A DNA stretch of 29,745 nt from a virus. Under the pieces are notes generated by a model. The model made no database searches and had not been told where the DNA came from. It saw only the letters and a list, made by a program, of their open reading frames with translations. The stretch's first letter is position 1, and every line of letters starts with the position of its first letter. The stretch covers positions 1 through 29,745 of IMG/VR virus record IMGVR_UViG_3300042938_001384. One strand, given 5' to 3'. A program made the translations under genes and the position numbers. This document shows, one piece after another, positions 2,109-19,958 of this stretch.

Positions 2109-2315
2109 ATGTCTAAAGACATTCGATGTCTGATTACCAACAACCTTCTTAAGAAGGGTGAGTGGTTTTGGCTATCGTGGGAAATGGATGCTGCAATCTC
2201 AGCACCGGGTCTAGCAGAATTAGAAATGCGCCGTCATGATCCTGACGATGACTTTGCTAGAATGTTATGGCAAGAATGGGAATGGACTCGGGAAATCGGA
2301 AACCCAGATCTTTAA
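2109..2315 (+). CDS. Small acidic hypothetical protein, 68 aa
   Basis: The protein begins MSKDIRCLITNNLLKKGEWF and is acidic and Trp-rich (six Trp in 68 residues). The C-terminal half reads DPDDDFARMLWQEWEWTREI. Its ATG follows the stop of the 82-aa gene by one base, so it is likely coupled to it. Its stop codon overlaps the stop codon of the convergent 288-aa gene (TTAA shared), leaving no room for a terminator. The function is unknown. Confidence 0.65.
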   Translation: MSKDIRCLITNNLLKKGEWFWLSWEMDAAISAPGLAELEMRRHDPDDDFARMLWQEWEWTREIGNPDL

Positions 2316-3178
2316 TCTTTTTTCAACTTATCTTGCATTGTCTTCAATGCTTCGGATGCCCATGCATAGGCTTCATTGCCATGCTTTTTAGGACCTTCTT
2401 TTACAATAGCCAATATTTTTCCAAGACGTTGGCTTGGTTGTTCAGTTCCTTTGAACATTCCTTTGGGTGCACCACTTGAATTTGGACTTTTTGATGGAGT
2501 CTCGGAATCAGAACCTTTAGCAACACGACCACGTTGTGGTTTAGTTTCTTCATCTGAATTTTCATTCATCATTTTTGAAATTTTAGAGGTAATTGATTCT
2601 CTTACTGTTTGCCAGTTTGCAGTTGGAATAGAATATTTGTAGTCATCTTCCGGGTCTGCATAGTCATTAGCATCTTCTTCTGCTTCGCGTCTTTTTCTAT
2701 TTGCCAAAGCATCTTTACGAATTTCTGCGGCTTGTACCATTTCATCTTCAAAATCTGACAAATCAGGATCAGCCATGACACCATCTTGTCCATCCAAAGC
2801 AACTTCATTTGCATTACCATCTGGCTTTGCATCAATTGGACCCGTGTTTTGTGCCATTTGAGCCAATCGTTCTGCTCGTTTCATTTTAGTAATATTTACA
2901 TAAGCACCAACATCACCATCTGCCAATGCAATGCTAGTTGGCGAAGGTTTGCCGAGACGGGAAATTGCGTCTTTTACATCCTCAGGATGTGCGCTAGGAG
3001 AATCTGGGTTAATAATTGAGGCTACTGGCATTTGACCCATCAATGCGGCTCGTTGAGCGGGGTCTGTAATCTTCGCAGCCTTGGCTTCGTTGATCATACG
3101 AAAACCATTTTGTTGGGCTTCTAATCCAGCACGATTTAATTGGTGAATCCAACTGTAATAACCTTTATTGTTCTTCAT
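2312..3178 (-). CDS. Late virion-associated protein with capsid-targeting-like N-terminus, 288 aa
   Basis: The N-terminus (MKNNKGYYSWIHQLNRAGLE, then QNGFRMINEAK) is amphipathic and reaches an I-N-E|A site near residue 31. That resembles the [LI]-x-E cleavage sites of T4 internal head proteins. The middle is polar and acidic (about residues 110-190). The C-terminal third is low-complexity Ser/Pro/Lys, then a short helical end (KHGNEAYAWASEALKTMQDK). CTAAATA sits 5 nt before the ATG with no Shine-Dalgarno site, so late, leaderless expression is predicted. I infer a head-internal or other virion protein; the family is not recognised with certainty. Confidence 0.65.
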   Translation of the reverse strand: MKNNKGYYSWIHQLNRAGLEAQQNGFRMINEAKAAKITDPAQRAALMGQMPVASIINPDSPSAHPEDVKDAISRLGKPSPTSIALADGDVGAYVNITKMKRAERLAQMAQNTGPIDAKPDGNANEVALDGQDGVMADPDLSDFEDEMVQAAEIRKDALANRKRREAEEDANDYADPEDDYKYSIPTANWQTVRESITSKISKMMNENSDEETKPQRGRVAKGSDSETPSKSPNSSGAPKGMFKGTEQPSQRLGKILAIVKEGPKKHGNEAYAWASEALKTMQDKLKKD

Positions 3179-3183
3179 ATTAA

Positions 3184-3190
3184 TATTTAG
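3184..3190 (-). promoter_or_regulatory. Late promoter motif CTAAATA, 5 nt before ATG
   Basis: The minus strand reads CTAAATA-TTAAT-ATG. The spacing predicts transcription from the A of the start codon of the 288-aa gene. Confidence 0.6.
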
Positions 3191-3192
3191 AT

Positions 3193-3220
3193 TTGACTTC
3201 TGTTATACATGATATATACT
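3193..3220 (+). promoter_or_regulatory. Sigma-70-like promoter TTGACT-16-TATACT
   Basis: TTGACT (3193-3198) and TATACT (3215-3220) are separated by 16 nt. Predicted +1 is 3227, which is the A of the ATG of the 44-aa gene. Confidence 0.7.
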
Positions 3221-3226
3221 TGTATC

Positions 3227-3361
3227 ATGACTTATGGTTCAAACGGTGCAGGTAAGGGAAGTTCCCCCAGACACGTAAATTTGGAACAATATGGCAAAAA
3301 TTATGAAGCAATTTTTAAAAAGAAGCCAGTAAAGAAAAAGGCTAAAAAGACACCTAAATAA
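3227..3361 (+). CDS. Very small basic protein, 44 aa
   Basis: ATG 3227 to TAA 3359-3361. The protein begins MTYGSNGAGKGSSPRHVNLE, then QYGKNYEAIF, and ends in a Lys-rich tail (KKKPVKKKAKKTPK). I have a memory, not checked, of similar tiny proteins with a G-x-G-K-G-S-x-x-R-x-V head, a YxxNYxxIF core and a Lys tail in marine tailed phages; the function is unknown. The ATG coincides with the predicted start of transcription, so the message would be leaderless. The late motif CTAAATA overlaps its stop codon and leads into tRNA-Tyr. Confidence 0.65.
   Translation: MTYGSNGAGKGSSPRHVNLEQYGKNYEAIFKKKPVKKKAKKTPK
3354..3360 (+). promoter_or_regulatory. Late promoter motif CTAAATA before tRNA-Tyr
   Basis: CTAAATA overlaps the stop codon of the 44-aa gene and ends 6 nt before the first base of tRNA-Tyr. 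If active, it would start the tRNA transcript almost at its mature 5' end. Confidence 0.4.
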
Positions 3362-3366
3362 ACTAC

Positions 3367-3449
3367 GCAAGAGTACTCAAGTGGTCAACGAGGGCAGACT
3401 GTAAATCTGCTGATTAATTTCTACGAAGGTTCAAATCCCTCCTCTTGCA
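3367..3449 (+). tRNA. tRNA-Tyr (GUA)
   Basis: Acceptor strands GCAAGAG (3367-3373) and CTCTTGC (3442-3448) pair fully and the discriminator is A. The anticodon arm is GCAGA-CTGTAAA-TCTGC with anticodon GTA. The long variable arm (class II) is as expected for bacterial tRNA-Tyr. The T loop is TTCAAAT. The T stem GAAGG/CCCTC has one A-C mismatch in the middle. CCA is not encoded. Confidence 0.93.
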
Positions 3450-3470
3450 TTCAGCCAAAAAATATAAAAA

Positions 3471-3734
3471 ATGTATACATCTAATAAACAACACGAATAC
3501 GATCCATATCTACAAGACTTTGGATCAAAACAAGTTGGTATCAATCAAGCACTAAATGACAGAATGAAAATTATAGAACTTCAAAATTCTGCTTTAAATA
3601 TAAAAATAAAAAAGCTTGAAGAAATGATTGCAAAAATGTCTATTAATACTAATGAAACTCTAGAACAAAAATTAGAAGAAATGACTGATAAACTAGATGA
3701 TCTTCAATCTAGGATTGATTTACTTGACGAATAA
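3471..3734 (+). CDS. Coiled-coil hypothetical protein, 87 aa
   Basis: The protein begins MYTSNKQHEYDPYLQDFGSK. From about residue 30 to the end there is a heptad-like pattern (IIELQNSALNIKIKKLEEMI, then LEQKLEEMTDKLDDLQSRID), so most of the protein should be a coiled coil that oligomerises. No Shine-Dalgarno site is evident; the stretch before the ATG is A-rich. It follows tRNA-Tyr and could be on the same transcript. The next promoter overlaps its 3' end. The function is unknown. Confidence 0.7.
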   Translation: MYTSNKQHEYDPYLQDFGSKQVGINQALNDRMKIIELQNSALNIKIKKLEEMIAKMSINTNETLEQKLEEMTDKLDDLQSRIDLLDE

Positions 3735-3751
3735 ATAAACCGGAGTATACT
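3724..3751 (+). promoter_or_regulatory. Sigma-70-like promoter TTGACG-16-TATACT with embedded ATAAATA
   Basis: TTGACG (3724-3729) and TATACT (3746-3751) are 16 nt apart. Predicted +1 is 3758, the A of the ATG of the next gene. A late-type ATAAATA (3731-3737) lies in the spacer, so the same site might serve early and late transcription. Confidence 0.68.
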
Positions 3752-3757
3752 CTTATT

Positions 3758-6452: not shown

Positions 6453-6459
6453 TATTTAT
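6453..6459 (-). promoter_or_regulatory. Late promoter motif ATAAATA, 7 nt before ATG
   Basis: It lies upstream of the 514-aa gene. Its TAA also serves as the stop codon of the 141-aa gene. Confidence 0.55.
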
Positions 6460-6881
6460 TGTTCTGTCTGCGTCAACTTTCTATCTACTCTTGGATCGGT
6501 ATTTAATTCAGAATACTTTACTTCTGGCAAAGTTTTGATGTTAAATTCCAAAAATATAAGAAAGGATTTAAGATAAGAATAGAGTCTAGGCTCAACTCTG
6601 AAGAATAAAATACGAGCAGTATTCTCTTCTCCAAAGACATTTTTTAATATTATTATATGATTGAGAATCAAACGTTCTCTAATGGACTTGAGAGTCTTGT
6701 GTTTATGAATTTTCTGTAATAATCTTTTAACGTATTTTATACGCTTCAAATCATCCATAAACTCTGCTTTACCAGAGCATTCACTATTAAAATAACAACC
6801 CTGACAGAATTCTGTAAAATTTTCTTCTGTCAGGGGTTTATTCATTTCAATCAATGTTTCAATGTTGGCACCCGCAATCAT
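6456..6881 (-). CDS. Conserved small phage protein, 141 aa
   Basis: The protein begins MIAGANIETLIEMNKPLTEE. A Cys cluster FCQGCYFNSEC (about residues 26-36) suggests a small metal site. A long helical part follows (DLKRIKYVKRLL, then RERLILNHIIILKNVFGEEN and TARILFFRVE). From memory, the RLILNHIIxLxNVFG..xxARxLFF pattern occurs in many T4-like phages without a known function. ATG 6881 is chosen, though a GTG at 6887 is possible; GGAAACGAG upstream can act as ribosome site. It overlaps the 3' end of the 185-aa gene by 23 nt and is probably translated with it. Confidence 0.7.
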   Translation of the reverse strand: MIAGANIETLIEMNKPLTEENFTEFCQGCYFNSECSGKAEFMDDLKRIKYVKRLLQKIHKHKTLKSIRERLILNHIIILKNVFGEENTARILFFRVEPRLYSYLKSFLIFLEFNIKTLPEVKYSELNTDPRVDRKLTQTEQ

Positions 6882-7416
6882 TTGCACTCGTTTCCATATT
6901 ATATGAAGAAGATTCAGTTGGAACTATGACAAATGTTACACGTCGCAAATGGTTTGGTTGTTTTTCAATATTTACGCTAAGAGCAAGAGAATAACCAAGT
7001 TTTTCCTTGATTCCATCTCCCTGACTAAAACCAGTTTTATTAACATCATCATAAGGATTTTGTCCATATATACCCAACTGTGGGCTACCATATTGGACTA
7101 ACTCTAACATATTTAACCCATCACTTAAACTCTTCTTGGGCATACCAAAATCCAGTCCAACAAGATTTAATTTATTTTTTACCACACCAAGAACGCCATC
7201 TGGATCAATATAATCTCTAGATGACAAGGAATATAACATTGCGTTTATAGCATCAATGTGTCTTGGCATCTGAAGATTGTGGGTACCTTTGTCGGTAAGC
7301 ACAGAAGGACCTAGTTTGCCTTGCGGATCTCCAATATAAAGACCACCACCAAAGGTGTGTTCACCAGCATTTTCGACAAGTTCATTGATTTTATTGAGAA
7401 GTGATTTAAATTTCAT
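6859..7416 (-). CDS. Late protein with capsid-targeting-like N-terminus, 185 aa
   Basis: The protein begins MKFKSLLNKINELVENAGEH. The first 15 residues form an amphipathic helix and reach L-V-E|N, which fits a T4-type head protease site. The rest is a compact Gly-rich domain (FGGGLYIGDPQGKLGP, then SSRDYIDPDGVLGVVKNKLN) ending in ANDCGCQH. No family is recognised. It has a Shine-Dalgarno site (AAGGAAAG) and a CTAAATA motif 10 nt upstream of the ATG that also overlaps the stop of the 252-aa gene. An internal head or tail-completion role is inference. Confidence 0.62.
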   Translation of the reverse strand: MKFKSLLNKINELVENAGEHTFGGGLYIGDPQGKLGPSVLTDKGTHNLQMPRHIDAINAMLYSLSSRDYIDPDGVLGVVKNKLNLVGLDFGMPKKSLSDGLNMLELVQYGSPQLGIYGQNPYDDVNKTGFSQGDGIKEKLGYSLALSVNIEKQPNHLRRVTFVIVPTESSSYNMETSANDCGCQH

Positions 7417-7425: not shown

Positions 7426-8184
7426 TTATTTAGTTCTGTATTTTATTAGTCCATATAAATCTGAATTGTATTTAATATCATTCAAATTTTGAAGAGTATC
7501 GTGGGCAATAGTTTTAATAAAGTCTTTGCACTTCCCACCAGGTGAAACGTTTTCTTTTAACATGGATGTTACGGATTTAGTGCTCCATGTTTTGCATGCC
7601 CAATACCGTGCTTTCCATCTTGGTCCAGGGTTGTCACAGTTATGACGAGCACGAAAGTTTTTGCGACGAGCAGGATTATCGCGTTTAATCTCCATGTTTG
7701 GATCGCCAAAATTTACTTTAACGACATTACCTTTATCATTCTTGACGTAAACTTTATATTTTTTTACATCACCTTTCATGATCTTATTAAGCTTTACTTT
7801 TTTATTTGCTTCTTCATGAATTTCAATTAGATCACCATATTCGTTGTATTCTTCACCTTCAGTTACATCAACGAATCCAATAATTTTATTTGGAGCAAAG
7901 GTTTCAACTAGTTCACATCCATGTTTATCTGTGAACGTTACCTTATAAGTATTTTCATTAATTTCAATTGCATCAACATTTAAAATGTTTCCAGATTCAT
8001 TGATAACAACGTCACATGGTCTCACATCTTTAATTTCTATAGATGAAAAGGGAACAGATGGTATATAAGTCATTGTTTCAACAATGAATTTATTGGAGGA
8101 TTGTTGAATGGCTATGACACGTTCATTCAAACCAACTTTGGTCTGAATCTTGTTCATAATCATATTGACATATTTCCTACTCAT
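7426..8184 (-). CDS. Conserved phage virion-type protein, 252 aa
   Basis: The protein begins MSRKYVNMIMNKIQTKVGLN; L-N-E|R near residue 21 could be a head protease site. The N-terminal half is beta-rich. About residues 145-205 hold the most recognisable part: YKVYVKNDKGNVVKVNFGDP, then KRDNPARRKNFRARHNCDNP and WKARYWACKTW. I recall this last block, without checking, as very widespread in marine T4-like phages and unnamed in function; the two Cys and the His/Arg-rich context may bind metal or nucleic acid. It overlaps the 791-aa gene by ATGA, so the two are translationally coupled and may act together. Confidence 0.65.
   Translation of the reverse strand: MSRKYVNMIMNKIQTKVGLNERVIAIQQSSNKFIVETMTYIPSVPFSSIEIKDVRPCDVVINESGNILNVDAIEINENTYKVTFTDKHGCELVETFAPNKIIGFVDVTEGEEYNEYGDLIEIHEEANKKVKLNKIMKGDVKKYKVYVKNDKGNVVKVNFGDPNMEIKRDNPARRKNFRARHNCDNPGPRWKARYWACKTWSTKSVTSMLKENVSPGGKCKDFIKTIAHDTLQNLNDIKYNSDLYGLIKYRTK
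7427..7433 (-). promoter_or_regulatory. Late promoter motif CTAAATA
   Basis: It lies 10 nt before the ATG of the 185-aa gene. Unlike most other cases here, a Shine-Dalgarno site (AAGGAAAG) fills the gap. Confidence 0.45.
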
Positions 8185-10556
8185 TTCCAGCTATCCTTAT
8201 TTTGTTTTTCACCTTTGTGATGACCATTATCAGATCGATTAGCAGAACGATCTCTTACACGTAAATTATTTATACCGTTTGATCCACCACTACGAATAGC
8301 TTTTTTATGGTCAATGTCTTTACCATCTCCCTTTTTAGCTCTTCCTTTTTTGATCATTTCTTCTCTGGCTTTAGTTCGTGATGCACGCTCTTTGCGTTGC
8401 TTTGATTTACCATGATAATTCTTGTATTCTTTTTTGTAATTTCTTTCGTATTCTTCTTCAATAAAATCTTTAATTAAAGTGTTTAGCAACAGTGGATTAC
8501 TTTGAATTCTTGCTTTTGCATTTTCAAAAATTGATTTCAGATTGATCATTACATATTCAGAATCTTCCAAAAGCATGTTTCGTGAATTTGATATTAATAA
8601 ACCTTCAGAATCATTTAATATTTCATAGTTTACCAAATTAGCTAAAACAAAATTATTTGTAAGTGCTTCAACAAGAAGATCATTTAACATTATAATTTCT
8701 TCACCAAGAACTTGGTTGGTGACATTATCATCTGTTAATACTGGAATCTTAGTTGTTTTATTGTCTATTGTAATGTAGTTATATTGAATCGAATTAAGAT
8801 CTTTTGGTTTGAAACCTGGCAATAAACTGGCATTTAATGAAAAATCATTGTTATTGGTTATATAACCAACCATGATCTGCATTGGATCAATTTTAGTTTT
8901 ATCAACTAATATATCTTTCAATCCCATTTTCTTTTGTTTGGGTTCTGTTGCTTCGACTACAGTTGTAAATTTCTTTAACTGTTCTGCTGCAGCAGGATTA
9001 TATCTTTGTATGTTTGATGCAGTCATTACATCTTTAGCCCGTTTGACATCTAGGGTGGCATCATTTGAAATGCTATCAAAATAATCATCTGTCATTGGTA
9101 AAATACCATTGACAGTTATAAGATGATTCGGTGCAGTCTCAGGAGGAACAATTCCATCTCCGCGCAACATGGTTTTTAATAGGTTCGATGATACGTACTT
9201 TTTAAGAGGATTATCTTTTTTACCTTTTAATAAATCGTATGCACCGTCTTCCCATGCTTTTTGATAATTTATCATCGATGCTAGAGGATTTAAATTTCCT
9301 TCTTCATCTACTACAGTTCCTATTTGTTGTCCTGATGCATCCTTAATAGGAGTATTTTGTAACTTTTTCAACATTTCAGGATCTTTACGAATCTCTGACA
9401 TGGCGTTATCGGGAACGAGCATTTGAGAGAACTGAGAAGCAATTTCACCAGTTTTTTGTAGAGTCTCAGAAATTCTTGGATCTGATGCTGTTAGATCAGG
9501 GTTGCTTAAGGCTTGAGTTAAAGCATTAGCCACAAAGCCTTTAAAGTTTTTGTTTGATTGATTGAAATCAGTTGATGAAAAAGCTATTTCTCCACCAGCA
9601 GCAACTTTGAAACGGTACTCTCCACAAGACATATCGGAAGCACCTTCAGAATTGACTGGCTTACCTGTTGTCTCAACGTTTGTTAAAAGAGTTTGTAGGC
9701 ACTGATCACCAATTTGCGATAAGATTTTTCTAGCAGTAAAGAATGCTGTTCTGGTAAATTCTCTACCGGCTGGAGCTAATGCAAGATATGTTTGCATTTC
9801 TTGTTCGCTTGCGCCTGCTTTAATCTTAGCAAGAAAGACAACTGCATTCAATACTTGTTGGTTATAAGGAACTCCGCTGATATCACTCAGACCATATGCT
9901 ACAGTTAATTTTTCATAAGTCAATTCATCAAAATCAGAATTGGGAGTCGGCTGACGCATCATCTGGAAATACTGATTGCGTAGTTCAGGTGGCATCTGAA
10001 GCAACTGCTCTGGTGTCATCTGAGTCATGGTCTGGAACATTTGTTCCTTGTCCATTTTCTTTGCTTTGGTTTTTTCAGACTTTTCAGTTTCTTCTGCTGA
10101 CTTTGGACTTACAGATTTTCTTTCTGATGTTTCTTCTTTGTTCTTAGATTTTTCATCTTTTTCTTCACTACCTTGTTTTACATTGCCAAATAATAATTTT
10201 GAAGCTCTAGTCTGTTCAAACCCCTTTTCTTGGGTAGCTCGCTTGGCTTCGTCAACAGTCATATCCTGTTTATTAAGTTTTTGATGATATCCCTTATTAA
10301 AGGAATCTTTAAAAATTAATTGCACATTTCCACTGTTTGTCTTTACTAAAATAACATCTTTAATAAGTTCTTGTGCAGGCTTCTTATCTCTTGGTATCTG
10401 TCTGGATCTTTCAACTTTTTTACGGGCTGCATCTTTAGCTTTATTGTCACCAGCACCAGCTTTTGCTGTTTCCAACTGTCCAGCCATAGCAGAACCATCA
10501 GCCTCATTAAGGATTGCGTGTTTGGCAATTTGATTTAAAAAAGTGTTAAAGTTCAT
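8181..10556 (-). CDS. Late virion-type protein with C-terminal HNH nuclease motif, 791 aa
   Basis: The N-terminus MNFNTFLNQIAKHAILNEAD is amphipathic and reaches L-N-E|A at residues 17-20, a good fit to the T4 head protease site. About residues 30-165 are a highly charged Lys/Glu/Ser linker, followed by a Met/Gln-rich part and a large helical body. The last 50 residues form an HNH domain: D749-H750, then KKAIRSGGSNGINNLRVRDR and the closing ANRSDNGHHKGE. No zinc Cys pairs are seen. A CTAAATA lies 7 nt before the ATG. The downstream 252-aa gene overlaps by ATGA. I infer a packaged or assembly-linked nuclease; a free enzyme would not need the large N-terminal body. Confidence 0.7.
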   Translation of the reverse strand: MNFNTFLNQIAKHAILNEADGSAMAGQLETAKAGAGDNKAKDAARKKVERSRQIPRDKKPAQELIKDVILVKTNSGNVQLIFKDSFNKGYHQKLNKQDMTVDEAKRATQEKGFEQTRASKLLFGNVKQGSEEKDEKSKNKEETSERKSVSPKSAEETEKSEKTKAKKMDKEQMFQTMTQMTPEQLLQMPPELRNQYFQMMRQPTPNSDFDELTYEKLTVAYGLSDISGVPYNQQVLNAVVFLAKIKAGASEQEMQTYLALAPAGREFTRTAFFTARKILSQIGDQCLQTLLTNVETTGKPVNSEGASDMSCGEYRFKVAAGGEIAFSSTDFNQSNKNFKGFVANALTQALSNPDLTASDPRISETLQKTGEIASQFSQMLVPDNAMSEIRKDPEMLKKLQNTPIKDASGQQIGTVVDEEGNLNPLASMINYQKAWEDGAYDLLKGKKDNPLKKYVSSNLLKTMLRGDGIVPPETAPNHLITVNGILPMTDDYFDSISNDATLDVKRAKDVMTASNIQRYNPAAAEQLKKFTTVVEATEPKQKKMGLKDILVDKTKIDPMQIMVGYITNNNDFSLNASLLPGFKPKDLNSIQYNYITIDNKTTKIPVLTDDNVTNQVLGEEIIMLNDLLVEALTNNFVLANLVNYEILNDSEGLLISNSRNMLLEDSEYVMINLKSIFENAKARIQSNPLLLNTLIKDFIEEEYERNYKKEYKNYHGKSKQRKERASRTKAREEMIKKGRAKKGDGKDIDHKKAIRSGGSNGINNLRVRDRSANRSDNGHHKGEKQNKDSWK
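8267..8274 (-). promoter_or_regulatory. Possible internal late promoter TATAAATA
   Basis: A perfect TATAAATA on the minus strand lies inside the 3' end of the 791-aa gene, 83 nt before the ATG of the 252-aa gene. It could give that gene extra transcripts. It is also a coding sequence in AT-rich DNA, so chance is possible. Confidence 0.35.
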
Positions 10557-10562: not shown

Positions 10563-11165
10563 TTATTTAGGCTCCTGAGAATGCTTATATTTTTCTAAAG
10601 GATTATAAACTTTTAAATTTTTATAAGTTTTAGCTTTGCCATTTACCAGTTTTTTAAGAGCAGAATAGTCTAAACTATTTTGTTTGGCAAACTGAGAAAG
10701 ATTGGGAATAGTCATGACTATATTAGTTGTAGTATCAACCAATATGTACAATTTTGTAGTCATTATGGTTTTGGCTTTTGGTTCTTCCAATTTTTCATGA
10801 GAACCAATTCCATCTTTTACTTCACGAATTTCGACTGCTGTCCAGCCTTTGTAAGTCTTTCGTTTACCATTTAACAGTTCACAAATTTTTACAGAAGTCA
10901 TTCCTTGATTCTCTGCAAATTTGGACATATCTTTAAAAAAAGTCTTTTCTCCAGTATCAACTCGTTTTAGCCAATACCCATTTTTTTCTGCAATTGGATT
11001 TGTCCAATTCCAATATCTTCCGTTTTGCGTAAAAAAACCACCATGAGTGGCAATAAATTGACTTCTGTGTTTTCGTGCCTTAGAACTGTCATTCATCATA
11101 ATCCAAAGTTTTGTTCCTCTGGTATTTACATTTTCTTCTAATGTTTTTTCTTTATGAAATTCCAT
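10563..11165 (-). CDS. Tandem NUMOD1-like repeat DNA-binding protein, 200 aa
   Basis: Two similar segments are visible: about residues 78-108 (MSKFAENQGMTSVKICELLN, then GKRKTYKGW) and 157-190 (LSQFAKQNSLDYSALKKLVN, then GKAKTYKNL). Each has a helix-turn-helix followed by NGKxKTYKx, the pattern of NUMOD1-type repeats that give homing endonucleases their DNA specificity. No GIY-YIG, HNH or other nuclease motif is seen. It is translated from an AGGGA site inside the end of the nuclease gene next door (14-nt overlap). It could be the DNA-binding remnant of a homing enzyme or a regulator. DNA binding is fairly likely; the role is unknown. Confidence 0.65.
   Translation of the reverse strand: MEFHKEKTLEENVNTRGTKLWIMMNDSSKARKHRSQFIATHGGFFTQNGRYWNWTNPIAEKNGYWLKRVDTGEKTFFKDMSKFAENQGMTSVKICELLNGKRKTYKGWTAVEIREVKDGIGSHEKLEEPKAKTIMTTKLYILVDTTTNIVMTIPNLSQFAKQNSLDYSALKKLVNGKAKTYKNLKVYNPLEKYKHSQEPK
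10564..10570 (-). promoter_or_regulatory. Late promoter motif CTAAATA, 7 nt before ATG
   Basis: It precedes the 791-aa gene and overlaps the stop codon of the upstream 200-aa gene. Confidence 0.58.
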
Positions 11166-11865: not shown

Positions 11866-11872
11866 TATTTAT
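11866..11872 (-). promoter_or_regulatory. Late promoter motif ATAAATA
   Basis: It overlaps the stop codon of the 408-aa gene and lies 45 nt before the nuclease start. A second motif GTAAATA (11822-11828) lies almost at the ATG. Confidence 0.45.
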
Positions 11873-13095
11873 CGCAGAACTTGTCGTCGTGCATATTTAC
11901 CAACTAATTCCATTCCTAAGTTAAGATCAATTTCTTGTGCTTTACCTTGTTCACGGTATGGTTTACTGGAAACTTCTGCTCCAGGTCCAAAGGGTAACCA
12001 AAATTTAGGTTTTGGTGGTGGTGGTGGTGTTGGTGGTGGTTTTGGAATTGGTTTTGGAACTGGATCTGGTTCTGGAACCGGTGATGGGAATGGTGCAGGA
12101 AGCGGTGGTGCATCCGGTACTGGGACTGGCGGTTTTACTGGTAGCGGTGGAATTCCAGGCACTGGTAGCGGTGGTGTTCCGGGCACTGGCTTAGTATCAG
12201 GATCTTCCTCGGGTTCTTCCTTGGGACCAGGTCCTGGAGCTGGAGCTGGCGCAGGTCCTGGAGCTGGTGCAGGTGTTGGAATTGGCCTAGGTGTAGGAGG
12301 TGTAGGTGTAGGTGCAGGCGGAGCAGGTGTAGGTGCAGGCGGAGCAGGTGTAGGTGCAGGCGGAGCAGGTACAGGCAATGGCGGTGTAGGTGTAGGTGTA
12401 GGTGTAGGTCTAGGTGCAGGCGGTGGTTCAACCGGTGGAGTAGCTGGTGGAGTAGCTGGTGGAGTTTCTGGTGTAAATGGATATGTTGGAGGTGGTGGAC
12501 CTGGTTCGGGTTCCCATATAGGTCTAGGTGTCCATGGTCTTGGAGTCCTAGGATCTGGTACAGGTTCAGGATTTCCTGCAGTAGCAGGTTTATAAGTTAT
12601 AATTTCTGGAGCGTTTTGAATTAGCTCTTGTTGAGTTTGTGAAACCTGTGTATCAACTTTATTACGAAGAATATCCAAGGCTTTTTCATTTTTTAATAAT
12701 TCTGGATTTTTCTTCAATATACGTGCAAGAACATCATCTGAGGTGGCTGCACCTGTCTCTAAATAATTTCTTATAACTTTATTAACACTTTCGTCTGCAA
12801 TTTTTTCTAATTCTGGGCTTGGAAATTTAATATTTTGATTTTGTGCTTTTAACCACAATTGCATCAATTCTTCTTGTGCGGCTTGTACGCCTTTAGCTGC
12901 AGCACCAGCAGCTGATTTGTCTACTGCTCGTTCTGCACCTCTAGAAAATAATTTAGCAAGTTGTTCTGCTGTCCATACTGCACCACGATCAACCATTTTT
13001 TCTGCAGCACCTTTTATGCCAGCTTCCGTTAAAATCTTTGTGCAGACATAACGGGTTTCTAGAATAAAATCAATTATTGGATTAGTAGACTTCAT
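11869..13095 (-). CDS. Late proline-rich virion-type protein, 408 aa
   Basis: Three parts are visible. Residues 1-26 (MKSTNPIIDFILETRYVCTK, then ILTEAG) hold an L-T-E|A head-protease-like site. About 27-165 are helical and Ala/Lys/Glu-rich. About 170-360 are almost pure Pro with Ala, Thr, Val and acidic inserts, in PAPPAPT repeats. The last 48 residues are ordered-looking (FWLPFGPGAEVSSKPYREQG, then a helix ending GKYARRQVLR). Such Pro-rich rods act as spacers or flexible tethers. CTAAATA lies 7 nt before the ATG. The Pro stretch makes the DNA locally GC-rich and repetitive, unlike its neighbours. The function is unknown. Confidence 0.65.
   Translation of the reverse strand: MKSTNPIIDFILETRYVCTKILTEAGIKGAAEKMVDRGAVWTAEQLAKLFSRGAERAVDKSAAGAAAKGVQAAQEELMQLWLKAQNQNIKFPSPELEKIADESVNKVIRNYLETGAATSDDVLARILKKNPELLKNEKALDILRNKVDTQVSQTQQELIQNAPEIITYKPATAGNPEPVPDPRTPRPWTPRPIWEPEPGPPPPTYPFTPETPPATPPATPPVEPPPAPRPTPTPTPTPPLPVPAPPAPTPAPPAPTPAPPAPTPTPPTPRPIPTPAPAPGPAPAPAPGPGPKEEPEEDPDTKPVPGTPPLPVPGIPPLPVKPPVPVPDAPPLPAPFPSPVPEPDPVPKPIPKPPPTPPPPPKPKFWLPFGPGAEVSSKPYREQGKAQEIDLNLGMELVGKYARRQVLR
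12305..12367. repeat. Three perfect 21-bp tandem repeats
   Basis: The unit ggtgtaggtgcaggcggagc(a) occurs three times without mismatch (12305-12325, 12326-12346, 12347-12367). It encodes the seven-residue PAPPAPT unit in the 408-aa protein. Partly degenerate G-rich repeats continue on both sides (about 12010-12590). Unit number is likely to vary between isolates by slippage. Confidence 0.9.
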
Positions 13096-13101: not shown

Positions 13102-15684
13102 TTATTTAGTTGGAGATGGTCTTGCTCTGCTAGCTTTTATAGCTGCCTTAATCTCATCATCTGAAACATTCTGTGGTGTAGTTAAAAGAGCTTGTTTTTC
13201 AGTTTCTGTATAACGATCCATGTCACCTACGCGTTCTTTTGTTCCCGCACCACGTTTTGCCATGTCTTTATCATATTTTTCTTGTTCTTTTTGAGCTGCT
13301 TCATACTCTTTATCATTTACATCATAATATGATTTTATTCCTTTTTCTCCCAATTTATAAGCACCGTATGCAGCAGCTGGTCCGAGCGTGATTGCTAGAC
13401 CAACGGGACTTCCCAAACCTGCCAAAGCAGCCATTGTTTCTGTTGAAGCTGCGGCAGCACCGGCACGGATTGCTGCACCTGCGCCAACACCAGAACCAAT
13501 CGCTCTTGGTATACCTGTAACTAATTCTTTTACATAAGGAGCTGTTACAGCTCCGGCGAATGTAGAAATTGGCCAATCATAAACTAAACCTTTTTCTGAA
13601 GTATCTATAAAGTCATTTGTTAGCATTGGTTCTTCATTTGCTCCAACCATTTTTGCTAGCGGTTCGGCAATTCCGTGACTACCATAATGAAATCCGGGCA
13701 ATGCATATGCTAAATGACTTCCAACTTCTTTTGCGGCTTTTCCAGCATCTTTAGCATAATCTGTTGCTTTTTGAAAAAGTGTAGGTGGAGGTGGAGTAAC
13801 AACACCTTCGCCTACCATAGCCACTCTTGTGGTTTCTTTACGTTTTCTTTTAATTCTTTTAGATGTCTTTTTGGTATTGGCTGTACCAAGATTTTTTAAT
13901 ATATCATTAATTTTGTCTTGTGTTGATTGTTGATCAGCAGCATCTTGGAAAGGTTTAATAATATCTTTTACATAATCTGCAGCAGGTTTTGATGTTGTTG
14001 CTTTTTGATTTGATAAATTAGAAAGATCCATTGGTTCATTCATTCCACCAGTGGATTCACTATCATCTTTTATATTATAATCTTCAGCATCTACTTCAGT
14101 TTTTACATCTGGATTATACGGACTTGGAACTGTATATGAGTATGCTGGTGGTTCTGAAGGAGTTTTTGCTTGTGTATCCATCAGCGGAGCAGATATCTCA
14201 CCATACAACTTATCTTTTATAACATTTGGATTAGTTTGTGCAGTATTTAACTTCATTATTCTTTGCAATTCAGCTGCAACATTTTTTCCAGAAGCTCCAA
14301 CAGATGTAACTAGATTATTAATAATATTAGATACTCCAACACCAGGAGGTTGTCTATAAGTAGAATCTACTTGACCTTCAGGATAAATCGGATACTCTCC
14401 ACGGTTAACATCAAGATTTACACTAGTTTCAGGATAGCGAACACCTGGAGAATTCAGTGATTGTTTTTTCATCCAATCAGATCCGCTTCTCATCATATCT
14501 TGAAGTGTATTTGTTGCAGCATCAGTAACAGAACGTTGAGCGTCTGATATACCTCTTCCAGGTTTAGATCGGTCTACGTAAGGACTATATCTTATAGGAT
14601 CAGCATCTGTTCCACTTCCATACATATTTTCATCATTATTATCTCTAAGTTGAACATCAAAATTTCCACCACCATCTCCTCGTATAGGTTCTACAATTGT
14701 TCTAGAACCATCTTTGTTTAGACTATCACCAATTTGATCCATGTAGCCTTGTCTTGCATCTTTAGTTGCAGCTTTTTGTTCAGCACCAACAATTCTTCTA
14801 GCTTCTGCTCTAATTTCTGCATCTCGTTTAGCTTCTTCAGCATTAATACGTATTAATGCTGCAGCATCATCGGCATCCCATTGAGCTTTGGCTCGTGATT
14901 GTGATGTTGTATTGGCTACGGTACCATCTACAGTGTCATACCTAGCCTGTGGAGTTCCAAATTGTGGAATCACTGCTGGTCTACGACGCATGGTATGGTA
15001 TGCAAGACTGTCATATGCAGGTCCTTGTCCTACACCAGCCGTTGGAGCAACAGTTGATTCACCAGAAGAATTTAAATCAAAAAATATCTGTCTATGTTTT
15101 GCGTTTCTTGCATCATAATCTTCACCAGTTGCTGTTTTAAAATCATTCTGAGTAACCCAGTACATTGGACTGATTCTTTTATTTGCATTTACAGTAGTGA
15201 ATGCTCTGTCTTGTCCCGCTGCTTTATCTTGTAGTTGTTTTTGATATACATCTGGGTTTTGTGTACGAAATTTATAAAGTTTTTCTGCATCATATTCGTC
15301 TTCAGAAGCTTTAACTTCTCTACCATGGGCTATATTTTCTTCTCTGGTGTGTTCTCTCCAATTCCAAGGTTCTGCTTTTTCATTTAAATTTTTTGGAGTA
15401 TTGGCAAAAGCATTTCCATATACATTGCTACCATGGGCTGCACTATGTGAAGCCCCTAAATTCTTAGATTGTTCCATTGCACCAATAGCATTATTAATGG
15501 TATTCGGAGAACTAATAGATGGATTAAACGAAGTTGGTCTATACAACTCATTCTTGTTTAATACATTTTTTATGTTTTCAACTAATGAAGGGGAATTTTT
15601 CTTTTCCTGTGGAACAGGATTTGGCAAATTTCCCATAAATTGCTTGACTTCCCAATAAAATTGTCTATCTTGTTTATTATCCAT
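13102..15684 (-). CDS. Very large late virion-type protein with Gly/Ala-rich hydrophobic segment, 860 aa
   Basis: ATG 15684 (MDNKQDRQFYWEVKQFMGNL) is preferred over a start at 15717, which would precede the late promoter. Most of the protein is polar, low-complexity and probably extended (many Asn, Asp, Pro, Arg; repeated Tyr-Pro segments). A basic patch (KKTSKRIKRKRKETTR, about residues 620-635) precedes a hydrophobic Gly/Ala zone at about 700-800 (IGSGVGAGAAIRAGAAAAST, then LAGLGSPVGLAITLGPAAAY) that looks able to enter a membrane. The end is charged. I infer a virion protein that could act in DNA delivery, like ejection proteins, but no homologue is recognised. Confidence 0.6.
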   Translation of the reverse strand: MDNKQDRQFYWEVKQFMGNLPNPVPQEKKNSPSLVENIKNVLNKNELYRPTSFNPSISSPNTINNAIGAMEQSKNLGASHSAAHGSNVYGNAFANTPKNLNEKAEPWNWREHTREENIAHGREVKASEDEYDAEKLYKFRTQNPDVYQKQLQDKAAGQDRAFTTVNANKRISPMYWVTQNDFKTATGEDYDARNAKHRQIFFDLNSSGESTVAPTAGVGQGPAYDSLAYHTMRRRPAVIPQFGTPQARYDTVDGTVANTTSQSRAKAQWDADDAAALIRINAEEAKRDAEIRAEARRIVGAEQKAATKDARQGYMDQIGDSLNKDGSRTIVEPIRGDGGGNFDVQLRDNNDENMYGSGTDADPIRYSPYVDRSKPGRGISDAQRSVTDAATNTLQDMMRSGSDWMKKQSLNSPGVRYPETSVNLDVNRGEYPIYPEGQVDSTYRQPPGVGVSNIINNLVTSVGASGKNVAAELQRIMKLNTAQTNPNVIKDKLYGEISAPLMDTQAKTPSEPPAYSYTVPSPYNPDVKTEVDAEDYNIKDDSESTGGMNEPMDLSNLSNQKATTSKPAADYVKDIIKPFQDAADQQSTQDKINDILKNLGTANTKKTSKRIKRKRKETTRVAMVGEGVVTPPPPTLFQKATDYAKDAGKAAKEVGSHLAYALPGFHYGSHGIAEPLAKMVGANEEPMLTNDFIDTSEKGLVYDWPISTFAGAVTAPYVKELVTGIPRAIGSGVGAGAAIRAGAAAASTETMAALAGLGSPVGLAITLGPAAAYGAYKLGEKGIKSYYDVNDKEYEAAQKEQEKYDKDMAKRGAGTKERVGDMDRYTETEKQALLTTPQNVSDDEIKAAIKASRARPSPTK
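13103..13109 (-). promoter_or_regulatory. Late promoter motif CTAAATA, 7 nt before ATG
   Basis: It precedes the 408-aa gene and overlaps the stop of the 860-aa gene. Confidence 0.57.
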
Positions 15685-15694
15685 GGTTATTAAA

Positions 15695-15701
15695 TATTTA
15701 G
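15695..15701 (-). promoter_or_regulatory. Late promoter motif CTAAATA, 10 nt before ATG
   Basis: It precedes the 860-aa gene at 15684 and lies back to back with the plus motif at 15708-15714. Confidence 0.5.
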
Positions 15702-15707
15702 ATTTAC

Positions 15708-15714
15708 ATAAATA
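15708..15714 (+). promoter_or_regulatory. Late promoter motif ATAAATA, 10 nt before ATG
   Basis: It precedes the HNH gene at 15725, divergent from the 860-aa gene. A weak AAAGAA between motif and ATG is the only ribosome-site candidate. Confidence 0.45.
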
Positions 15715-15724
15715 CATAAAGAAT

Positions 15725-16517: not shown

Positions 16518-17062
16518 TTTTTATACTGAATCATTGCCTTTAAAATATAATAACTGTCGATCACATCCGTAACAGGATTGCTCAAAGTTTTCTGGTTAAA
16601 TACCGATAAAAGATTGGTTTTTGTTTCTATTGAGAAGGCTTCGTACATTGCCTGTTTGTCAGCGTTACCTTTGCCCGTAGCGCATTTCTTGACTCGGGAT
16701 GGCTCAATGATGGTCACGGGAATGGCGAGCTTGTAGAGCTTATGCTTCAAGATTCCCATATTCTCTGCTAGATTGAATACTCGACCTTTGGAGCCAAACG
16801 AATACCCTTCTACCGCTATATCTCCAGCCCCAATACAAAGATTAGAAGCCCATTGAGATATAGTATCAAATCTATCAACATCTAGAATATATTCCTGAAA
16901 AGATTCCCCAGTAATATTTGGGGCAATTTTATCAGCATACTTTTTGGTATTTGTCAAATAATAAAAGAAACAATTTTCAAACTTAAATTCTCTACGTTCA
17001 TCATAAAGACAAAGGCAGGGGCAGGTTATAGAGTAATCAATGCCGATTAACATGTGGAACAT
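16514..17062 (-). CDS. RuvC-like Holliday-junction resolvase / RNase H-fold nuclease, 182 aa
   Basis: Motifs of the RuvC/RNase H fold appear in order: LIGIDYSITCPCLCLYD (first Asp, residue 8), DIAVEGYSFGSKG with the catalytic Glu near 85, IEPSRVKKCATGKGNADKQA (substrate-binding Lys/Arg region, about 138-157) and NPVTDVIDSYYILKA with the final Asp pair. Such enzymes cut four-way junctions during recombination and packaging. T4 itself uses a different enzyme, gp49 (endonuclease VII). ATG 17062 is chosen for the AAGGT site upstream. A long structured 5' region (17063-17172) precedes it. Specificity for Holliday junctions is inferred from the fold. Confidence 0.78.
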   Translation of the reverse strand: MFHMLIGIDYSITCPCLCLYDERREFKFENCFFYYLTNTKKYADKIAPNITGESFQEYILDVDRFDTISQWASNLCIGAGDIAVEGYSFGSKGRVFNLAENMGILKHKLYKLAIPVTIIEPSRVKKCATGKGNADKQAMYEAFSIETKTNLLSVFNQKTLSNPVTDVIDSYYILKAMIQYKN

Positions 17063-17080
17063 ATGTACTTATACCTTGGT

Positions 17081-17162
17081 CAGAAGTGGTGGTTCCTTAG
17101 CAGTCTGATGAAGTATACTTCGATTATTTCAAAAGGATTGCGTGGAAACCCAACCACTTCTG
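17081..17162. other. Structured intergenic region with long inverted repeat
   Basis: CAGAAGTGGT (17081-17090) and ACCACTTCTG (17153-17162) are perfect inverted repeats, extended inward by GGTTCC against GGAAACC with a bulge. The enclosed part contains the perfect 12-bp palindrome GAAGTATACTTC (17110-17121). On the minus strand this is the leader of the resolvase gene. It could be a leader RNA structure or protein-binding site; no known riboswitch fits. Confidence 0.5.
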
Positions 17163-17179
17163 CCTAAAATATTTAGGCA
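17161..17179. terminator. Short hairpin at the end of the 632-aa gene
   Basis: TGCCTAAA-ATA-TTTAGGCA forms a perfect 8-bp stem around the stop codon of the 632-aa gene. It lacks a U-tract, so termination is uncertain. On the minus strand it also contains CTAAATA (17170-17176), a late motif 107 nt before the resolvase gene. Confidence 0.35.
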
Positions 17180-19071
17180 TATCGTCTATCTTGTTTCGAT
17201 GAAGATTTTTCTACACCTCTATATATGGCTTTACCTTCTGGGGTTCCCATCATTTCAAGAGCTTTTAGCGGTGCTAGATCTTCACCTGGTCCATTTTGTT
17301 GAAGAATCTTATACATTCTATCTCTATCTTTTTCTATTTCTTCATCTGTTTGATCACTCGTAGGATAACTACCTGTTGATTTTAATAATCTACCTTTAAT
17401 ATCTCTCATAAATGCAGGCATTTCAGCTCTACTCCAAAAATAATTATTAGGAGTTTTAAATCTATTATCTGGTGAAGGAGTTGGAGTATCCATTTTATCT
17501 AATGCAGTTTTTGCAATCTCTTTTTGTTCTGGAGTCAATTCCCAACTATCTAAAATTCCTCTTTTTTCTAATTCTTCATAACCAGATCCTAGAGCAATTC
17601 CACTTGTTGAAGGTTCAATACCATATTTAATAGTAGCAGGAGATTTATATTCTGGTTTTTTTTCTAAATTAGAACTAACTGCATTTTCAACTGCAGCAAC
17701 TCCCCGTAATTGAGTTCCTATTGCATGTTGACCTTCATGATTCATAACCTGAATATATTGATCCCAATCTTTAATATTATCTTTATTCATATCAATTGTA
17801 GTTTCAAAAGTATTTGGCGCATTACTCATTTGATTATCAATTAGTTTTTGAACAGATTGTTCAACTGGTAATTGTGGTGTTTTCTTATCTCGTTGAGCTT
17901 TATTAAAAGTAGAATATGGATCTAGAAGATGCTGCACATTCCATGTTAATTTAGCATCAACTAATTCAGGGTATTTTACGTTGTTTCTTCCTAAGAAAGC
18001 TTCTGGTGGATCAAAGTATCTGAAACCAGTTTTATCAAAATGAGTTATCTCTAATGGCTTATAAAGCATTGCTTCATCATGTTTTGGATCTCTTAAATCT
18101 GCATACTGTCTAGCCAGTTTTGCTTGATCACTATAATCTAAATCATTTGGTCCAGAACGTTTCAAATATTCTTTTTGTTTTGCTAAAAAGTCATTTCTTT
18201 CTTTGGTTTTATCTTTTCCAAATTCTAAAGAAATCATATCAAAAGGAGATAATTTGCTGTTTTCTTTCTTTACGAACATAGTATTAGCATTATATAAAGT
18301 ATTTGCAATTCCTGTTATTCTATCAAAATAATCTTGTGAATCATGATAATTTTCAGGTGGATTTGGATTAGCAACTGAAGGAGTTACACCTAACCGTGCA
18401 TTTCTTGCTTCTTTTTCTCCGGCTTCATTGTGTGCTTGCCATAATGGACTATTTAATTTTTTTCTTTCTCTATAATTTTGTGAAAATGCATAATCAAAAG
18501 GATCATTACTACGTAAAAAATTTGTGACATCATTAAATCCTTGAGATATCTGAGTTCCTTTATCTTTGACTTGTCTTAACAAATCAGTATGCAATGATCC
18601 AGCGTCAAGTGGATTATCTGGATTTAATATAGAACCTAACCATCCTTTTTGTCCTAAATCTGGAGGTTGATTCATAGTTCCTGTACTGGAGAATGACCTG
18701 GATGATTTCATCTCCTCAGGTGAACGTGGCTCGTTCTCCTTATTATTTGGATCCATCACCGTACTTTCAATATATTTCCTAGTATTATTAAATGCATCTT
18801 CAAAAGGAGTTTCATCAATATCATCAGATAATCCAAATTTTTGATTATTTGCTAAAATTTTCTCATTTTTAAGTTTTAATGCTGTATCATAAGCATCACG
18901 ATCTGTTCGTGTATATTTTACAGGATTCAAAGCTGTACCAGAAAAATTTACTGGACTTATCATTGAACCATTTTGATTATCAGGAAAATCAGCAAGATCT
19001 AATGGTACATTCATACCACCATATTTGGTATCTTCTTGTTTTTCTATTAAGTATTGTTTAAATGAGAGCAT
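17173..19071 (-). CDS. Late virion-type protein with zinc metallopeptidase motif and head-targeting tag, 632 aa
   Basis: It begins MLSFKQYLIEKQEDTKYGGM. The first ten residues resemble the capsid-targeting start of T4 internal proteins (MKTYQEFIxEA as I remember it), with L-I-E|K as possible cleavage site. The N-terminal half is polar and Asn/Asp/Pro-rich. About residues 350-570 form a zincin-like domain: VMNHEGQHAIG carries H445-E446-H449, and FWSRAEMPAFMRDIKG offers E550 as third ligand. The nine N-terminal residues are shared with the next gene. No late motif lies close; it follows the 286-aa gene by 26 nt and is probably co-transcribed with it. Peptidase activity is inferred from the motif. 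Confidence 0.65.
   Translation of the reverse strand: MLSFKQYLIEKQEDTKYGGMNVPLDLADFPDNQNGSMISPVNFSGTALNPVKYTRTDRDAYDTALKLKNEKILANNQKFGLSDDIDETPFEDAFNNTRKYIESTVMDPNNKENEPRSPEEMKSSRSFSSTGTMNQPPDLGQKGWLGSILNPDNPLDAGSLHTDLLRQVKDKGTQISQGFNDVTNFLRSNDPFDYAFSQNYRERKKLNSPLWQAHNEAGEKEARNARLGVTPSVANPNPPENYHDSQDYFDRITGIANTLYNANTMFVKKENSKLSPFDMISLEFGKDKTKERNDFLAKQKEYLKRSGPNDLDYSDQAKLARQYADLRDPKHDEAMLYKPLEITHFDKTGFRYFDPPEAFLGRNNVKYPELVDAKLTWNVQHLLDPYSTFNKAQRDKKTPQLPVEQSVQKLIDNQMSNAPNTFETTIDMNKDNIKDWDQYIQVMNHEGQHAIGTQLRGVAAVENAVSSNLEKKPEYKSPATIKYGIEPSTSGIALGSGYEELEKRGILDSWELTPEQKEIAKTALDKMDTPTPSPDNRFKTPNNYFWSRAEMPAFMRDIKGRLLKSTGSYPTSDQTDEEIEKDRDRMYKILQQNGPGEDLAPLKALEMMGTPEGKAIYRGVEKSSSKQDRRYA
19048..19071 (-). 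repeat. 24-nt direct repeat, copy 1 (5' end of 632-aa gene)
   Basis: It matches 19935-19958 at 22 of 24 positions. It encodes MLSFKQYL on the minus strand, ends exactly at the ATG and marks a duplicated targeting tag. Confidence 0.8.
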
Positions 19072-19097
19072 ATTAATATAAGGTTTTTTTTAGTTTA

Positions 19098-19958
19098 TTA
19101 TTGAATACCCTGACCAAGACTTCTAAGATTTTGTCTTGTCATAGTACTTTTTTGTTTCTTCTTTTCTTCTTCTGGCATATCTCTATCAGTAAGATATCCT
19201 TGAATTCCTAAAGATGCTGCTGTTCCAATTCCTGGAATATAATCTGCAACTTCAGATGCTGCTTCCAATCCAGCTCCCACATAATCACCTGCTTGGGCTC
19301 TTTGTGTCATGGCTGCTACAGAAGCTGCGGTTCCGATGACTGGTAGAGCTTTTAGAACAGCTTTTCCAACGCCTTTGCCTATACTTAGACGTGCCTGCCA
19401 TCTAGATGCATCCGATTGTGGTGGGTTTATTGTTATATTTGGATCACCTTTTGCAGATTGTGTGCGTCCTGATGTGCTTGGTTTTATTTCACCGGGCGCA
19501 GGATATGTCGTAGACAAATCTTGATCCAATACAGGTTTTGTATAATCTATTACAGGTTTTTCATTTGGAGTTGTACCGAATATTACATCAACAGGTTCTC
19601 GGGATGTATATAATTGTCTGTTAAAAGTATCTGGAGGAGCCGGATCATTTCTTAGTTTAACAAGACTATCATTATATTTCGGGTCATCTATATCCAATGG
19701 ACTATAGTAATAACTTGATGCCCGTGTAGCCATTTCCCTTTCTTCTGGATTCATAAATTTAGTTCGTATATATTCTTCCATGTTTCCCCCAAAAGAGGTA
19801 CGTAAAATATGTGGATCGATGTCATTTTTATGTTTTTGATATAAGTCTTTATAAATTTTATCAACCTCATCTTTATAATTTTTAGACCATTCACCCATGT
19901 TAAAAGAGCCTGTTTCAGAATTGTTTTCTAGAATTAAATATTGTTTAAATGACAGCAT
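19098..19958 (-). CDS. Late virion-type protein with glycine-rich hydrophobic segment and head-targeting tag, 286 aa
   Basis: It begins MLSFKQYLILENNSETGSFN, with the same first nine residues as the 632-aa protein and I-L-E|N as a possible cleavage site. Residues 20-190 are polar and Pro/Asp-rich. Residues about 193-256 are hydrophobic and Gly/Ala-rich: GKGVGKAVLKALPVIGTAAS, then DYVGAGLEAASEVADYIPGI and GTAASLGIQGYL, a pattern seen in membrane-inserting toxins and ejection proteins. The end is basic. ATAAATA lies exactly 5 nt before the ATG and leans against a terminator. I infer an injected protein that may act on the membrane; no homologue is recognised. Confidence 0.63.
   Translation of the reverse strand: MLSFKQYLILENNSETGSFNMGEWSKNYKDEVDKIYKDLYQKHKNDIDPHILRTSFGGNMEEYIRTKFMNPEEREMATRASSYYYSPLDIDDPKYNDSLVKLRNDPAPPDTFNRQLYTSREPVDVIFGTTPNEKPVIDYTKPVLDQDLSTTYPAPGEIKPSTSGRTQSAKGDPNITINPPQSDASRWQARLSIGKGVGKAVLKALPVIGTAASVAAMTQRAQAGDYVGAGLEAASEVADYIPGIGTAASLGIQGYLTDRDMPEEEKKKQKSTMTRQNLRSLGQGIQ
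19935..19958 (-). repeat. 24-nt direct repeat, copy 2 (5' end of 286-aa gene)
   Basis: Second copy of the repeat at 19048-19071, with two mismatches. The similarity stops just after the MLSFKQYLI tag while the rest of the two genes differ. Confidence 0.8.

Follow-up and report, generated by a model that had tools for sequence, protein, structure and literature searches.

The window analysed here is a 29,745-base record of the IMG/VR collection (IMGVR_UViG_3300042938_001384), which profile matches to DNA polymerase, DnaB-like/gp41 helicase, UvsX-like recombinase, primase and ribonucleotide reductase identify as a fragment of a T4-like phage. Its replication half (positions 17000-29700) has no near phage in the cultured-phage collection, its gp41 is at most 55% identical to gp41 of cultured phages, and two of the proteins considered below, of 632 and 791 amino acids (aa), have no match in that collection. 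Seven open reading frames (ORFs) on the minus strand between 2312 and 19958 encode proteins whose first residues end in [LI]-x-E. A preliminary description of this DNA had proposed that these proteins are targeted to the phage head like the T4 internal proteins (IPs), cut after the glutamate by a gp21-like protease and injected with the DNA. All seven ORFs are present, and their N-termini read exactly as given there. Taken together, they are probably T4-type head-cargo proteins with removable N-terminal tags, a reading that applies to the individual members with different force. Each protein is named by its length in aa:

17173..19071, minus strand: 632, candidate cargo; tag MLSFKQYLIE followed by K (codons 19042-19071); HExxH at residues 445-449 and E550, putative zinc metallopeptidase
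19098..19958, minus strand: 286, candidate cargo; tag MLSFKQYLILE followed by N (codons 19926-19958); residues 195-262 resemble part of phage peptidase/endolysin profiles
8181..10556, minus strand: 791, candidate cargo; tag MNFNTFLNQIAKHAILNE followed by A (codons 10503-10556); C-terminal phrog_4590 domain at residues 702-787, HNH-like by eye
6859..7416, minus strand: 185, candidate cargo; tag MKFKSLLNKINELVE followed by N (codons 7372-7416); site in 9 of 9 distinct N-termini
11869..13095, minus strand: 408, proline-rich candidate cargo; tag MKSTNPIIDFILETRYVCTKILTE followed by A (codons 13024-13095); site in 2 of 2 distinct N-termini
2312..3178, minus strand: 288, candidate cargo; tag MKNNKGYYSWIHQLNRAGLEAQQNGFRMINE followed by A (codons 3086-3178); site at residues 29-31 kept in relatives
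7426..8184, minus strand: 252; proposed but doubtful tag MSRKYVNMIMNKIQTKVGLNE followed by R (codons 8122-8184); phrog_7595 domain

Three papers have established the T4 capsid-targeting sequence (CTS), its residue rules and its transferability (PMC9026906, PMC3012670, PMC9958956). Mutagenesis of the CTS assigned targeting mainly to residues 4 and 7 and processing to residues 8 and 10 (PMC9026906). In T4 itself, IPII and IPIII start with MKTYQEFIAE, IPI starts with MKTFKEF and has ITE|A at residue 19, and Alt starts with MELITELFDE. Alone of the seven, 632 fits all four published positions, with F/Y at 4, an aromatic residue at 7, L/I at 8 and E at 10. A near-exact CTS with one extra residue (E11) is found in 286, and 791 and 185 have a longer form that resembles IPI, with F at position 3. 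The remaining three, 288, 408 and 252, lie outside the T4 residue pattern. The proposal of T4-type head targeting with cleavage by gp21 is thus best founded for 632 and 286, where we consider head targeting very likely, and it is well supported for the IPI-like 791 and 185, where head targeting is likely. For 288 and 408, which carry another tag with the site kept, the balance leans towards head targeting. The case of 252 is weaker, as discussed below.

The motif itself is a poor guide. When its end was allowed at residues 8-36 and window genes of at least 80 aa were counted, bare [LI]xE occurred in 15 of the 29 genes called in the window, where 200 shuffles gave a mean of 6.9 and at most 14, and in 46 of 135 genes (shuffle mean 28.6, maximum 43) of G001, a close relative of 135,768 bases whose 791 homologue is 98% identical. 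Genes of all contigs were called with a simple custom script. By chance the motif is expected in about one fifth to one quarter of genes. Moreover, and to the detriment of our interpretation, 11 of the 31 window ORFs that were compared with relatives keep it in every distinct N-terminus (at least two each), and six of these 11 are not on the list of seven, namely the gp41 helicase, an exonuclease and four small genes. As [LI]xE is conserved in these six unlisted families too, it is insufficient for the claim when taken alone, and although enriched it was rejected as a criterion. The chance level and the unlisted families would agree with a rival view in which AT-rich gene starts that favour translation give rise to F-K-rich N-termini, and in which the motif reflects chance or a signal at the nucleotide level. 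Considered as a whole, the tag is nevertheless far beyond chance. A strict tag pattern stands at the start of 15 proteins, four of them copies of 632, among the 506 called in the window and ten relatives; inside the proteins of the same set it occurs at 1 of 2,108 methionines and at 1 of 103,883 positions. Among 400 proteins of at least 100 aa from these contigs, 53 pairs share only their first 36 residues, one pair shares only the last 36 and none only residues 41-76; the 53 pairs are not independent because several contigs are near-identical. No strictly tagged ORF occurred in 2.99 Mb of reversed sequence or in 67 control loci (681,816 bases), which had been found via an unrelated domain and were the part of the control contigs scanned for tags. 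Furthermore, at least 172 tags are encoded by 158 different 30-mers with varying synonymous codons, the tag residues themselves being pattern-selected. Against this background, chance or a nucleotide-level signal is hardly a credible source of the tags.

The tag ends are conserved in relatives. Scanning with 791 yielded contigs with homologues from 98% to 47% identical, and [LI]xE is present in all eight distinct N-termini of this family, as LNE|A, LLE|V, IME|A and LNE|A, and as LTE|A in the clade with the shorter tag (seven residues less: 11 residues in this clade, 18 in the other). In the 185 family, LVE, IYE, LAE or LQE stands at the same place in every distinct N-terminus, so that the middle residue is free, and the body is highly conserved throughout. 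All five distinct N-termini of the 288 family keep the site (INE, LNE, LAE, LTE). The LTE of 408 corresponds to LLSE in contig L004, and two G001 proteins of 472 and 495 aa have 408-like starts ending in LLLE and LLNE. The 632 site is held in one diverged homologue, that of L004. The bodies of 286 and 408 are lineage-specific. Conservation of the tag end was accordingly observed for 791, 185, 288, 408 and, in a single homologue, 632; 252 departed from it, and 286 has no relative to compare.

Pairs of proteins similar in their N-termini only defined four tag families: A (M[KL]xFKx[FY]LxE), B (MxxLTNYYKNLxEQLQ), C (MKNxGYYxWIHxLN..., the 288 type) and D (MDNKQDRxFYWEVKxF). One further pair, starting with MALDFPP..., probably represents tail fibres. 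Two DNA scans for tag A gave at least 120 stretches each, 80 of them listed, with many loci common to both. As the loci were also chosen by the tag or its first half, the prevalence of tag A is a lower bound, and the tag A counts that follow hold among the matches listed. Within the 80 listed loci, a degenerate scan gave at least 84 matches, of which 77 lie in ORFs of at least 60 aa. When residues 8 and 10 were left free and 4 of 82 matches with ORFs below 30 aa were dropped, 50 of the 78 remaining ORFs still had E10 and 47 had L/I8. At least 172 distinct tagged ORFs from 288 loci fall into at least 60 body families, between which no similarity was detected (single linkage, E 1e-3; ORFs below 60 aa dropped); two of the families are T4 IPII and IPIII. 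Two or more tagged ORFs were found in 20 of 142 loci, and 19 pairs of neighbours on the same strand are separated by less than 200 nt.

The bodies behind tag A include enzymes. Pfam, PHROGs and PADLOC were run on 57 sequences, comprising 286 and the representatives of 56 of the 60 families (all but T4 IPII and the representatives of L119, L233 and L275); the results refer to the first 25 of 36 families for Pfam and the first 25 of 44 for PHROGs. In one member each, Pfam recognized ART-PolyVal (E 1e-23), S-adenosylmethionine (SAM) lyase (5e-18), GNAT (4e-9), zeta toxin/AAA_33 (1e-7), lysozyme (5e-5), acid phosphatase, methyltransferase and, weakly, M15 peptidase (E 0.0015); cytidylyltransferase was found in two. 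PADLOC gave scattered, weak matches for tagged proteins (best E 1.4e-4), which were discarded.

In the scan for tag C, 57 of 64 matches start near an ATG, and [LI]xE stands at 30 or 31 in 55 of these 57. The 44 distinct N-termini comprise 41 with L/I at residue 29 and 42 with E at residue 31, while residue 30 is free. Beyond residue 31, conservation drops abruptly (mean entropy 0.98 bits over residues 1-31 versus 3.05 over 32-60, several early positions being fixed by the pattern), and the bodies are variable. For tag B, 90 of 94 matches lie near an ATG, 76 distinct bodies form 26 families, and 88 of the 90 have [LI]xE somewhere within residues 20-60, its distance from the start varying; in 39 of 87 the first such site is followed by Ala. 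Tags also appear to be exchangeable between bodies, since a comparison of 304 tagged proteins brought out two bodies shared by A and B. The first has tag A in G004 (MKKFKEFLRE|AVENWDEQ) but tag B in L368 (...NFLEKQYLTE|VENWDEQ), with 80% identity over 129 residues; since the match starts six residues before the site, the tag B form in L368 keeps a tag A-like tail. The second body starts right after the tag in its A form (157 aa, G001) and after a long spacer in its B form (L408). In all, 13 G001 ORFs match one of five tag patterns, which agrees with the earlier impression that the set is larger than the T4 IPs. The tags might instead be uncleaved docking segments of tail, baseplate or other virion proteins, with which the peptidase/endolysin-like residues 195-262 of 286 and the probable tail-fibre pair among the N-terminal-only pairs would agree. 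Yet the fixed [LI] and E around a free middle residue, the collapse of conservation after the site and, in the two-tag body, a tag difference lying a few residues before the site fit cleavage better, and we regard docking as very improbable.

In support of proteolytic removal of the tags, G001 encodes a Peptidase_S77 (gp21-type) protease (E 3e-39), a family also present in T4 and in the cyanophage S-SM1. The G001 enzyme keeps the NHP and VS[ST]RG blocks, which hold catalytic residues. Next to it are ORFs assigned by position and eye to gp20 and gp22; the gp23 found there can be aligned to its T4 counterpart. At the position where T4 gp23 is cut (FLTE|A), the [LI]xE site reads HLYE|D in G001 and ILTE|T in S-SM1. 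Two smaller genes lie within this head module. One, placed between those resembling gp20 and gp21, encodes a 137-aa protein with SLLAE|N. The other (G001 98615-99301), which separates gp21 from gp22, encodes a 228-aa protein that starts with MKSTLSVKTQNYLIESLNKR...FILTEAVPP and has two possible sites. Peptidase_S77 was detected in 12 of 14 contigs of at least 58 kb from the two tag scans and in 9 of the 11 strict-tag contigs of this size (L258 below the curated cut-off), in both cases among the matches listed. None of 12 control contigs (31-61 kb), which by this criterion are not T4-like, contains it.

Some of the proteins, above all 185 and 288, may have a role in the prohead core or scaffold like T4 gp67, gp68 and gp22 and would then be cut, structural and mostly discarded. 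T4 core proteins bear the same cleavage motif, the body of 185 is highly conserved, unlike arms-race cargo, and the G001 head module holds the two small proteins just described. On the other hand, the genes in question lie tens of kb from that module (T4 IP genes are also apart from theirs), the 288-type bodies are variable, those of 286 and 408 are restricted to one lineage, and the tagged enzymes of other contigs would make poor scaffold. A scaffold function therefore appears unlikely to us, and we favour head cargo for the set.

T4 and S-SM1 served as positive controls. A rule relaxed to M..[FY]..[FYL][LIVF].E at ORF starts recovered IPII and IPIII and nothing else over all 168,903 bases of T4. 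Over all of S-SM1 it recovered one ORF, the cytidyltransferase GC190 (MKKFSAFLNE|AERS), a core gene of cyanophages. Seven matches were obtained in G001, none in the 681,816 bases of the 67 control loci and none in reversed G001. GC190 of S-SM1 (Kyanoviridae), with its tag MKKFSAFLNE followed by A, was detected by mass spectrometry in purified virions as one of 41 proteins (PMC3037559). It is the only direct virion evidence, and it comes from another phage. S-SM1 GC15, likewise named as detected by mass spectrometry, has no tag. A DUF7207 protein of the window (6456-6887) is 40% identical to S-SM1 GC198, and GC190 lies a few genes away in S-SM1; this resemblance and proximity suggest that the two regions represent a common gene block.

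Several further points weigh against our interpretation. The relaxed rule misses IPI and Alt, two of the four known T4 cargo proteins, and the strict pattern finds nothing in S-SM1. The S-SM1 result was not blind, because the rule was relaxed to the published positions after GC190 had been seen, and one of 41 S-SM1 virion proteins could be linked to a tag (PMC3037559). The window itself holds no protease, so that the gp21-like enzyme postulated earlier was located in the close relative and not in the window. Peptidase_S77 also occurs in all three large contigs (L232, L235, L252) whose scanned loci lack the strict tag. As the protease occurs without the tag and is missing from control contigs that are not T4-like by this criterion, its co-occurrence with the tag may be no more than a mark of T4-like phages. 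In the unconstrained scan, 34 of 78 ORFs among the matches listed fail the joint test of residues 8 and 10. Seven of these 34 carry the 252 domain (57-69% identity), with the match running from residue 26-30 and LxE or IxE followed by Ala beside the match start, as in T4 IPI. Neither tag B nor tag C finds a counterpart in the collection of cultured phages, so that they come without a known function. Finally, the site proposed for 252 is not kept; L004 has FNE, and relatives have LILE, NLIE or ILLE at 11. Residues 120-200 of 252 match (57-69% identity) proteins in which the matching part begins at residue 26-30, after MKTFKE[FY]. Head targeting of 252 is thus doubtful, though its C-terminal domain directly follows a tag elsewhere.

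The bodies of the seven proteins give some hints at function. H445, E446, H449 and E550 of 632 are kept in the L004 homologue, which is 39% identical, starts with the tag MLRFKQFLIE and lacks much of the N-terminal half. Because HExxH and the later Glu are preserved at this distance, 632 might, as a guess, be an injected metallopeptidase. A Pfam match to SprT-like was not significant (E 0.26), and structure prediction gave no usable fold (pLDDT 31.6). No homologue of 286 was found in the loci of five other contigs carrying 632. The model of 791 was moderate (pLDDT 64.2), with the tag residues 3-18 helical at low confidence, and Foldseek against the PDB returned no match (best E 0.46), so no function was read from it. 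Many viral contigs (L013-L079) encode the C-terminal domain of 791 by itself, as a small separate protein (73-87 aa among those listed), and the S77 protease was absent from the 12 larger contigs tested among these. No PDB relative of 185 was found by sequence.

Apart from the seven, one more large protein, promoter-like boxes and a short repeat deserve mention:

13102..15717, minus strand: 871-aa protein, likely start 15684; N-terminus MDNKQDRxFYWEVKxF (tag D) common with relatives that differ in the remainder
19964..19971, minus strand: late-promoter-like TATAAATA of the 286 gene; same stretch upstream of the 632 gene in G001
3184..3191, minus strand: late-promoter-like TCTAAATA of the 288 gene
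7427..7434, minus strand: late-promoter-like ACTAAATA of the 185 gene
10564..10571, minus strand: late-promoter-like CCTAAATA of the 791 gene
13103..13110, minus strand: late-promoter-like ACTAAATA of the 408 gene
19933..19958, minus strand: 26-nt tag-coding repeat, copy 1, at the start of the 286 gene; 24 of 26 positions identical to copy 2, by eye
19046..19071, minus strand: 26-nt tag-coding repeat, copy 2, at the start of the 632 gene

The 871-aa protein was not on the earlier list and is possibly a further cargo; it and its tag D relatives have no constant [LI]xE site (5 of 8 N-termini). A NNTAAATA box lies 11-16 nt upstream of five of the seven gene starts (286, 288, 185, 791 and 408). 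None is found within 120 nt of 632 in the window, the distance for 252 is 90 nt, and the exonuclease gene has such boxes as well. In G001, NATAAATA occurs within 120 nt of 8 of 17 tagged, 8 of 40 structural-block and 16 of 94 other genes. The late-promoter-like TAAATA box stands exactly 11 nt before the ATG in 15 of 150 G001 genes, with 31 boxes at 9-20 nt. The peak is similar in G003 (6 at 11 and 6 at 13) and lies at 26-30 in S-SM1 and at 32-34 in the 60-109 kb part of T4. If the box is a promoter with T4 geometry, many late mRNAs would be nearly leaderless here. As a separate observation, the DNA polymerase ORF of the window (27555-29492) has 645 aa versus 835 aa in G001.

Comparison with G001 also indicates how a tagged gene might be gained. 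The window exceeds G001 by about 884 bases in the interval from the ribonucleotide reductase gene to the 632 gene, and these bases are the 286 gene. The 26 bases upstream of 286, including TATAAATA, and its first 20 bases are those of the G001 632 gene, and the upstream sequence of the window 632 gene differs from that of G001. On the simplest reading of these sequences, the 286 gene was inserted at tag-coding DNA; alternatively, it may have been lost elsewhere by recombination between the repeats.

Together, the data are consistent with the following route. The amphipathic N-terminal tag would bind the scaffold core of the prohead, and the activated gp21-type protease would cut after [LI]-x-E, releasing the mature protein inside the head. 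The mature protein would stay with the DNA and be delivered into the host. We infer core binding, packaging, cleavage, injection and the cargo functions. The tag would be modular, several types doing the same job for many unrelated bodies, and tag-coding DNA may act as the join at which new cargo such as the 286 gene is acquired.

The system resembles T4 IPI, IPII, IPIII and Alt, with their CTS and gp21, in its ten-residue tag (positions 4 and 7 aromatic, 8 L/I and 10 E), the longer IPI-like form, unrelated mature bodies, neighbouring genes and the T4-type gp21 and gp23 of the relative. Unlike T4, it tags more genes in each genome, its cargo is larger (here up to 791 aa), it uses no fewer than two additional types of tag (B and C), and the enzymatic cargo of other contigs is varied. 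A parallel exists in the head ejection proteins of the giant phage SPN3US, where the prohead protease (gp245) cuts head proteins that are ejected into the host; that phage belongs to a giant-phage lineage. Its cleavage motif is different. A 1994 paper on T-even IP polymorphism may have suggested exchange at the tags before. T-even IP genes were identified via their signal sequence, and each of the three proteins Ip1, Ip2 and Ip3 blocks a type IV restriction enzyme (PMC12373910, PMC9391042). For T4-like phages outside the coliphages, no description of head-targeted internal proteins was found in the open-licence literature, among the matches listed. The main text of a review of T4-like cyanophages lacks the term 'internal' (PMC2984593), and 'capsid targeting sequence' and 'cyanophage' were joined by a T4 review alone. 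The system thus seems to be of a known kind. Its novelty would lie in how widely it reaches, in the additional types of tag, in the body found with two different tags and in the gene insertion at tag-coding DNA.

Injected phage proteins can counter host defences from the first moment of infection. A sequence rule such as the relaxed one, which recovered two T4 IPs without false matches and picked a cyanophage virion protein detected by mass spectrometry, could list injected candidates directly from metagenomes for testing. In a broader perspective, we are modestly inclined to see here a general way of loading cargo in T4-like phages, in which tags are interchangeable and tag DNA is a recombination joint, and in which reading the tags may expose a large, hidden stock of injected effectors packaged in the head, such as ADP-ribosyltransferases, SAM lyases, kinases, acetyltransferases and proteases.

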